Shown piece after piece: positions 29,928-32,005 of a DNA stretch of 64,000 nucleotides. Within the stretch, counting starts at the first letter, position 1. Every line of letters begins with the position of its first letter. The notes under the pieces were generated by a model. The model was given only the letters and a program-made list of their open reading frames with translations. It was not told where the DNA came from and made no database searches. The DNA is from Gemmatimonadaceae bacterium (GTDB lineage: Bacteria > Gemmatimonadota > Gemmatimonadetes > Gemmatimonadales > Gemmatimonadaceae), in the NCBI GenBank assembly GCA_035533015.1, contig DATLUQ010000051.1, forward strand, positions 186,001-250,000, read 5' to 3'. The position numbers and the translations under genes are program-made.

Positions 29928-30350
29928 TCAGCTCACGAGGCCAGAGGCCGCGGCGATCGGCGCGCCCACGCGCACCTGCACCGGAACCTCGGTGGTCGGC
30001 TCGTGGTCGAGCGCGATGGCCATGGCGTACGAGCCCGCGCCGTCGATCGGCAGGTCGATCTGTGCGATGAGCGGTACGTCCATCTCGGCCACTCCGGAGG
30101 GAAGCGGTCCCACGCTCAAGTCGCCGGCGCTGCTCCAGAGTTCGGCCCGCTTGGGATTGAGCCAGCGCAGCGTCACGGTGTGATTCCCCGTGTCGAGGGA
30201 GTTGCCTTTGATGTGCACCACGAGGTGCGCGCGCGGGTGCACGGCGGGAGACGACCCCACGTGGAGGGCGTCGAACACGCCGAGGATGTTCAGCTTTCCT
30301 TCCTGCGAGACGTTGGCGGCGTCGGCGAAGAGCGCGAAGGCAACATGCAT
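29928..30350 (-). CDS. DUF6941-like conserved protein
   Basis: 140 aa from ATG 30350. The start MHVAFALFADAANVSQEGKL and the following LNILGVFDAL pattern match small conserved proteins that I associate with DUF6941, of unknown function; this recognition is from memory. The rest is beta-rich with an Ig-like feel (HTVTLRWLNPKRAELW, PLIAQIDLPIDGAGSY) and no cysteines, signal or membrane helix. It is divergent from an EamA transporter, with overlapping promoters at 30357-30389, and convergent with the NlpC/P60 gene 6 nt away. Confidence 0.75.
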   Translation of the reverse strand: MHVAFALFADAANVSQEGKLNILGVFDALHVGSSPAVHPRAHLVVHIKGNSLDTGNHTVTLRWLNPKRAELWSSAGDLSVGPLPSGVAEMDVPLIAQIDLPIDGAGSYAMAIALDHEPTTEVPVQVRVGAPIAAASGLVS

Positions 30351-30356
30351 GAGAAA

Positions 30357-30385
30357 AACATAGACTGTCGGGCGGGGTGCGTCTA
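30357..30385 (-). promoter_or_regulatory. Leaderless promoter of the DUF6941-like gene
   Basis: On the minus strand: TAGACG, a 17-nt spacer, then TATGTT, followed after 6 nt by the ATG. It overlaps the rightward EamA promoter almost entirely. Confidence 0.55.
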
Positions 30386-30389
30386 CGTT
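30361..30389 (+). promoter_or_regulatory. Leaderless promoter of the EamA transporter gene
   Basis: TAGACT, a 17-nt spacer, then TACGTT, followed after 6 nt by the ATG at 30396. With the opposing promoter it forms a nearly symmetric unit, AAC(A/G)TAGAC at each end in opposite orientation. Confidence 0.55.
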
Positions 30390-30395
30390 TCGTGG

Positions 30396-31316
30396 ATGCC
30401 TTCCCCTGACGCGCAGGCGGCGCCCCGGGCCGAACATGCGGTCGGTTCCGCGACGGTCTGGCTCACCGACATCTCGCTGGTGCTGATGGCGCTCATCTGG
30501 GGCGTCAATTTCAGCGTCGTGAAATACGGCACCACCCAGCTCTCGCCGCTCGCCTTCAACGGGTCGCGCGTGCTGCTGGCCGCGGTGGCGCTGTCGCTGG
30601 TCGCGTTCGTACCGCGGCGGGCGCCGGTGGCGCGGCGCGACATCGTGGCCCTGCTCCTGCTCGGCGTGCTCGGGAACGGGGTGTACCAACTGCTGTTCAT
30701 CGAGGGCGTGGCGATCACGCGGGCCGGCGACGCGGCTCTGGTCGTCGCGGCGTCCCCGGCGTTGATCGCGTTGATCGGCCAGATGCTGGGCGTGGAACGC
30801 GTGGCGGTGCGCGCTTTCGTCGGCATCGTGCTGTCCATGGTCGGCATCGGCTTCGTGGTGTACAGCGGCGCGCGGATGGTGGTCAAAGGGGCCTCGGTGG
30901 CGGGTGACCTGCTGGTGCTTGCCGGCTCGGTGAGCTGGGCACTGTACACGGTGCTGCTGACCCCGTACGCGCGGCGCATCGATGGCGTCACGCTGTCGGC
31001 GTACACGATGATCGGCGGTGCCCTGATGCTCGAGGTCGTGGCGGCGCCGGAGCTTGCCCGCATGACATGGAGCACCGTATCCCCCGGCGCGGTGGCCGCG
31101 ATCCTGTACAGCGGGTTGGGCGCGCTGGTGGTGGCGTATCTCTTCTGGTATCGGGGCGTACGCGTGATCGGACCCACGCGCACGGCCATGTATTCGAACC
31201 TGCAACCGCTGTTCGCCCTGATCGTGGCGGCGATCCTGCTTGGCGAATCGCCCACGCCCTGGCAGGTGATGGGGGCTATCTGCATCATGGCCGGCCTGCT
31301 CCTGACCCGCGCGTGA
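30396..31316 (+). CDS. DMT-superfamily transporter (two EamA domains)
   Basis: 306 aa with ten predicted membrane helices in two EamA repeats (first about 30-160, second about 170-300). The typical motif WGVNFSVVKYG is in helix 1 and a conserved GE (LLGESPTPWQ) precedes the last helix. Such proteins usually export amino acids or other metabolites; the substrate is unknown. The stop codon overlaps the GTG of the downstream HAD phosphatase (GTGA), so the two are co-translated. Confidence 0.9.
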   Translation: MPSPDAQAAPRAEHAVGSATVWLTDISLVLMALIWGVNFSVVKYGTTQLSPLAFNGSRVLLAAVALSLVAFVPRRAPVARRDIVALLLLGVLGNGVYQLLFIEGVAITRAGDAALVVAASPALIALIGQMLGVERVAVRAFVGIVLSMVGIGFVVYSGARMVVKGASVAGDLLVLAGSVSWALYTVLLTPYARRIDGVTLSAYTMIGGALMLEVVAAPELARMTWSTVSPGAVAAILYSGLGALVVAYLFWYRGVRVIGPTRTAMYSNLQPLFALIVAAILLGESPTPWQVMGAICIMAGLLLTRA

Positions 31317-32005
31317 AACTCGTTCTCTTCGATATCGACGGTACGCTGTTGAACAGCGACGGCGCGGGGCGCCGCGCCATCCAGCGCGCGCTCGTGGAAT
31401 CATTCGGCACGGCCGGCCCCGAGCAGCACTGGTTCGACGGCAAGACCGATCCTCAGATCGTTCACGAGCTGATGGCGCTGGCCGGCATCGACCGCGATGT
31501 GGTCGAGGCGCGCTTGGACCACGTGTTCACGCGCTACGTCGAATTGCTGCGCGACGAGATCGGGCGCCCGGGCCACGCGGCGGCGATCTATCCTGGCGTG
31601 GCCGAACTGCTTGACGCCCTCGAGGCGACGAACGGCGTGACCCTCGGACTTCTCACGGGAAACGTCGAGGCGGGCGCCCACGTGAAGCTCGGCGCGGTGG
31701 GTATCGCTCCGGCGCGATTCCGCGTCGGCGCGTTCGGCTCGGACCATGCAGTACGCGCAGAACTCCCCGCCATTGCCCGCGCCCGCGCCGGCGCCATGTT
31801 GGGGTGCGAACTCCCGGGCCAGGCGATGGTCGTGATCGGCGATACGCCGGCCGACCTCACCTGCGGGCTCGGCGTGGGCGCGCGCGCCATGGGGGTGGCC
31901 ACCGGACGCTACTCGGTGGCCGAACTGGGTGCGTACCAGCCCGCGGCCGTGGTGGCGAACTTCCGCGATACGGCCGCCGTGGTCGACGCGATTCTCTCCG
32001 CATGA
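31313..32005 (+). CDS. HAD-superfamily phosphatase (phosphoglycolate-phosphatase-like)
   Basis: 230 aa from GTG 31313, overlapping the transporter stop (GTGA). Motif I is intact as FDIDGT (nucleophile Asp7, acid Asp9). Motif II Thr is in LGLLTGN, a Lys lies in AHVKLGAVG, and motif IV is GDTPADLTCG. The cap is the alpha-helical C1 type seen in Gph/PGMB enzymes. It likely dephosphorylates a small phosphate ester such as 2-phosphoglycolate; the true substrate is not known. It contrasts with the HAD-like protein at 5463-6149, where motif I is altered. Confidence 0.88.
   Translation: MKLVLFDIDGTLLNSDGAGRRAIQRALVESFGTAGPEQHWFDGKTDPQIVHELMALAGIDRDVVEARLDHVFTRYVELLRDEIGRPGHAAAIYPGVAELLDALEATNGVTLGLLTGNVEAGAHVKLGAVGIAPARFRVGAFGSDHAVRAELPAIARARAGAMLGCELPGQAMVVIGDTPADLTCGLGVGARAMGVATGRYSVAELGAYQPAAVVANFRDTAAVVDAILSA

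Follow-up and report, generated by a model that had tools for sequence, protein, structure and literature searches.

In a Gemmatimonadaceae genome of 3.03 Mb, two divergently transcribed genes, one encoding a DUF6941 protein and the other an EamA-family transporter, are separated by 45 bp. This interval, located in the window that we analyzed (the whole stretch of 64,000 nucleotides), probably holds a back-to-back pair of leaderless promoters of the housekeeping type, in which each arm of an inverted repeat would play a dual role, polymerases would alternate between the two directions, and the products would be independent low-level transcripts rather than the outputs of a switch. The kind of promoter is ordinary; its layout is unusually compact and well conserved, with reciprocal overlap of −10 and −35 elements in some lineages.

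Organization of the locus

An earlier note on this DNA had described a −35/−10 pair on each strand of the interval (Table 1), and direct reading of the sequence bears this out: the hexamers and their 17-nt spacers are as claimed, TAGACG-17-TATGTT leftward and TAGACT-17-TACGTT rightward. The −10 of each promoter indeed lies on the −35 of the other at both ends, the two bases common to each −35 and the opposite −10 being the self-complementary TA. The −10 boxes are separated by 21 nt and the predicted transcription starts by 46 bp. By E. coli standards these promoters are weak, with −35s matching the consensus at 4/6 positions and −10s at 3-4/6; a sigma-70 consensus scan detected no promoter, the hexamers being too far from the E. 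coli consensus.

Table 1. Coordinates of the genes and candidate promoter elements in the window
Feature	Position	Strand	Remarks
DUF6941 gene, 140 aa, starts MHVAFALFADAANV	29928..30350	−	Pfam PF22091, E 7.5e-26; start conserved in relatives
EamA-family transporter gene, 306 aa	30396..31316	+	Pfam PF00892, E 6e-43
HAD-like hydrolase gene	31313..32005	+	Pfam PF00702; start overlaps EamA stop by 4 nt
Intergenic interval, GAGAAAAACATAGACTGTCGGGCGGGGTGCGTCTACGTTTCGTGG	30351-30395	 	45 nt, from DUF6941 ATG (30350-30348, −) to EamA ATG (30396-30398, +)
Inverted repeat, AACATAGAC-N15-GTCTACGTT	inside 30351-30395	 	 
Left arm, AACATAGAC	30357..30365	unstranded	No variation in 9/9 columns of the orthologous arm among four congeneric species
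Right arm, GTCTACGTT	30381..30389	unstranded	No variation in 9/9 columns of the orthologous arm among four congeneric species
DUF6941 −10 element, TATGTT	30357..30362 (30362-30357)	−	Sequence and conservation
Putative DUF6941 −35, TAGACG	30380..30385 (30385-30380)	−	2-bp overlap with EamA −10; −35 role uncertain
EamA −10 element, TACGTT	30384..30389	+	Sequence and conservation
Putative EamA −35, TAGACT	30361..30366	+	2-bp overlap with DUF6941 −10
Gap of 6 nt, DUF6941 −10 to ATG	30351..30356	−	Without Shine-Dalgarno; predicted transcription start at or beside ATG
Gap of 6 nt, EamA −10 to ATG	30390..30395	+	Without Shine-Dalgarno

The HAD-like hydrolase gene is likely co-transcribed with EamA. 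The divergent DUF6941-EamA pair (29928-31316; loci L002-L050 and L215-L234) is kept in most genera of Gemmatimonadaceae, hinting at a functional link between the two genes. The partner facing DUF6941 is usually EamA; it is a HAD hydrolase at L015 and L020 and a SCO1/SenC gene at L042, and further loci of that group have similar sequences. What is conserved is one predicted leaderless promoter for DUF6941 and another for whichever gene faces it.

Predicted leaderless transcription

Only 6 nt lie between each −10 and its ATG, and there is therefore no room for a leader or a Shine-Dalgarno sequence; both the DUF6941 and the EamA mRNAs are predicted to be leaderless. The earlier note had given the 6-nt distances correctly and had not drawn this consequence. 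The first T of each −10 sits 12 nt upstream of the ATG, the position expected of a TANNNT leaderless promoter, and the six nucleotides preceding the start codons, TTTCTC and TCGTGG, contain no Shine-Dalgarno sequence. A TANNNT −10 placed beside the start codon is known from leaderless genes of Actinobacteria and Deinococcus-Thermus (PMC3160421, PMC12340547, PMC3898074). The locus resembles them in carrying TANNNT a few nucleotides before ATG, without Shine-Dalgarno, in a high-GC genome, and differs from them in that two such promoters stand back to back and overlap, here in Gemmatimonadaceae.

A k-mer positional search in about 400 kb of genome, where start codons were poorly known, revealed no clear leaderless or Shine-Dalgarno signal, and the leaderless signal in the genus was settled by pattern counts over whole genomes. 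TANNTT precedes ATG by 5-7 nt in 455 matches, versus 139 at 18-20 nt (p 4e-40), over four genomes from the window's genus, and its placement next to ATG is a general feature there. Close outward-facing pairs of leaderless boxes were found in 94/148 Gemmatimonadaceae genomes, compared with a total of 4 matches for a reversed control pattern; a second search pattern likewise revealed divergent leaderless pairs in the family. Judged by these patterns, tight divergent pairs of predicted leaderless genes are common in Gemmatimonadaceae. A literature search found no report of leaderless genes in Gemmatimonadaceae or Gemmatimonadetes, and the present data provide sequence evidence for such transcription in the phylum. 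They also indicate that two leaderless promoters can fit in the 33-47 bp separating divergent genes.

Conservation of the promoter unit

By itself, the inverted repeat is only mildly unlikely and not striking: an 8/9 repeat at any spacing arose in 350 of 20,000 shuffles of the 45 nt (1.8%). The presence of TANNTT 5-7 nt from both ATGs is rarer, at 3 per 100,000 shuffles of the same 45 nt (0.003%). Conservation is the stronger argument against chance. The pattern GTCTAYGTTN6ATG has two matches in the 3.03-Mb genome, both at the DUF6941/EamA locus, and the exact repeat occurs nowhere else in this genome and, in 151 genomes of the order, only at the DUF6941/EamA locus. The named relatives of the genome are Gemmatimonadota metagenome assemblies, many of them Gemmatimonadaceae. 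When the symmetric unit was sought in related genomes, as the earlier note had proposed, the promoter unit turned up again in four species from the window's genus and in three further genera. None of the 18 arm columns varies among the four species. At the 13 loci, from four genera, that possess the complete repeat, information content is 1.76 and 1.91 bits per column in the near-invariant arms, 0.46-0.66 in the spacer and 0.23 in the stretch from the DUF6941 −10 to its ATG.

Orthologues of DUF6941 were found in 91/99 Gemmatimonadaceae genomes. A TANNNT box stands 4-8 nt upstream of the DUF6941 start codon in 81 of the 83 family orthologues with a scorable start, and TANNNT-N5-8-start also precedes the divergent partner gene, usually EamA, in most loci. 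Both −10 boxes, on whose conservation the earlier note had staked its proposal, are kept, and this conservation of the −10s and of the arms supports the existence of two opposed promoters with overlapping −35 and −10 elements.

Spacing of the −10 elements and possible use of the −35s

The distance between −10 boxes was compared at the 69 loci where both were called. It is 21-22 nt at 25 of these, from nine genera, 10-11 nt in three genera and 29 nt or more in the remaining genera; none of the 69 has a spacing of 12-20 or 23-28 nt, and one extra locus, scored at 1 nt, was set aside as doubtful. On the DUF6941 tree, the 21-22-nt loci fall into four groups, and the spacing label requires six state changes overall. 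Related species are non-independent samples, and if just four clade events are counted, the excess at this spacing has a p of only about 0.016. Among other divergent leaderless pairs of the family, DUF6941 orthologues aside, a slight and unconvincing excess at 21-22 nt was seen.

A −35 role for TAGAC predicts that the GTC beside a −10 follows the spacing. GTC adjoins the DUF6941 −10 at 13/25 loci with 21-22 nt versus 1/44 at other spacings (p 1.5e-6 without correction for kinship, 0.02 when counted by genus), while on the EamA side the corresponding counts are 11/25 and 10/44 (p 0.10). As the genomes are related, these counts overstate independence. The EamA −35 has support from these counts, because the DUF6941-side GTC tracks the 21-22-nt spacing. 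The role of the DUF6941 −35 is uncertain, because the EamA-side GTC is also kept at spacings unsuited to a −35. The right arm, which contains this GTC, is thus not solely a −35, and the EamA-side GTC may itself be an EamA promoter element. For the locus in the window, use of the two putative −35s is inferred. Immediately before the EamA −10, GTC is kept at many spacings, for example at L019, L020, L025, L031 and L164.

The same comparisons bear on another account, which we regard as a real possibility without thinking it probable, in which the two leaderless −10 boxes alone matter, TAGAC being no more than −10 flanks and the overlap a by-product of a very short inherited intergenic region. The persistence of both −10s at spacings of 10-11 and at least 29 nt agrees with this account, as does the retention of the EamA-side GTC whatever the spacing. 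Several genera of equal spacing also lack TAGAC; TAGCCG, TAGGCG or TACACG-like sequences occupy the candidate −35 positions in other genera of the 21-22-nt class. The account fits poorly with the tight clustering of spacings at 21-22 nt in four tree groups, and with a DUF6941-side GTC that is nearly confined to that spacing. A bolder reading, that the family maintains a compact selected format in which two leaderless genes about 45 bp apart, with reciprocal overlap and a fixed 21-22 nt, are coupled by polymerase competition, is tentative, and we consider it doubtful.

Proposed mechanism and its alternatives

In the reading that we prefer, two housekeeping-type promoters would stand back to back in the 45 bp, with transcription beginning at or beside each ATG. 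With 21 nt between the −10s, the TAGAC in either arm lies 17 nt upstream of the opposite −10, such that an arm could act as the −10 in one direction and contribute to the −35 in the other. Given known RNA polymerase footprints, predicted starts 46 bp apart would make joint occupancy impossible, and mutually exclusive polymerase binding is plausible from the geometry. One polymerase complex would be on the DNA at a time and the two directions would take turns, the weak promoters yielding two essentially independent low-level transcripts. The reciprocal overlap, if true, would provide a minimal natural system in which to measure two polymerases competing for one site.

It is unlikely that the inverted repeat is instead the operator of a transcription factor and its promoter likeness secondary. 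The perfectly kept 9-bp arms in the genus, separated by a drifting spacer, would also fit an operator. The arm spacer, however, is 15 or 16 nt depending on the genus, elsewhere the TANNTT boxes persist at a fixed distance from ATG while the repeat does not, and in 151 genomes of the order the exact repeat is confined to this one locus. Nor does the adjacent gene offer a candidate factor: the model of DUF6941, of moderate confidence (pLDDT 70, pTM 0.66), is a beta-sandwich and shows no DNA-binding fold. As the modeled protein does not resemble a DNA-binding regulator, there is no indication of self-regulation. Comparison of the model with solved structures gave no convincing match, and a literature search found no mention of DUF6941.

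The earlier note had gone further and read the overlap as a mutually exclusive switch. For a regulatory switch, in which polymerase bound one way would silence the other gene and DUF6941 and EamA would be expressed alternately, we find no support, and we think it improbable. The overlapping core elements and the predicted exclusion of a second polymerase would favor it, and there is precedent in the EcoRV and CfrBI restriction-modification genes, whose overlapping divergent promoters are mutually exclusive and can be regulatory (PMC5333194). As in those systems, the divergent core promoters overlap here, by 2 bp at each putative −35/−10 junction if the −35s are used. In EcoRV, however, a control (C) protein acts on the divergent promoters, and the C transcript is not leaderless (PMC5333194), whereas no regulator is seen among the flanking genes examined at the DUF6941/EamA locus. 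The overlap itself is present in some genera only, the −10s elsewhere being 10-11 or at least 29 nt apart, and the partner gene also differs between genera, being sometimes a HAD hydrolase or SCO1/SenC. Related promoters of E. coli point the same way. The bidirectional promoters of Warman and colleagues share a single −10, with starts 7-25 bp apart and most commonly 18 (PMC12825309, PMC10268837); their basal activity is too low for the two directions to compete, and interference is limited to conditions in which one side has been activated (PMC12825309). The present locus is like them in its near-symmetric DNA, predicted to be read in both directions with polymerase bound one way at a time, and unlike them in having two separate −10s 21 nt apart and predicted starts 46 bp apart. 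Polymerase exclusion is not equivalent to a regulatory switch.

An ECF-type promoter was rejected: AAC and CGTC are present but 20 nt apart, compared with the usual 16-17 nt, and AAC is not retained in the other genera.

Other predicted divergent leaderless pairs

Divergent pairs of the form CAT-N6-AANNTA...TANNTT-N5-7-ATG are widespread at sites other than DUF6941/EamA, examples being G089:C334:3392-3442, G076:C51:22606-22656 and G030:C5:38636-38686. Pair spacings appeared periodic in a first histogram; the periodicity was not clearly repeated in a second and is not claimed. A second recurrent divergent leaderless pair occurs in genera g22 and g24 (G085:C7:52220-52288, G138:C53:85904-85972, G069:C13:10608-10675, G097:C1:2245042-2245109, G050:C72:8888-8957); its midpoint, which is conserved and resembles TTCGACAATCGG, may be an operator or promoter element shared by the two genes. 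An even tighter arrangement is found at G035:C323:7035-7067, where a single base separates two outward-facing leaderless −10 boxes.
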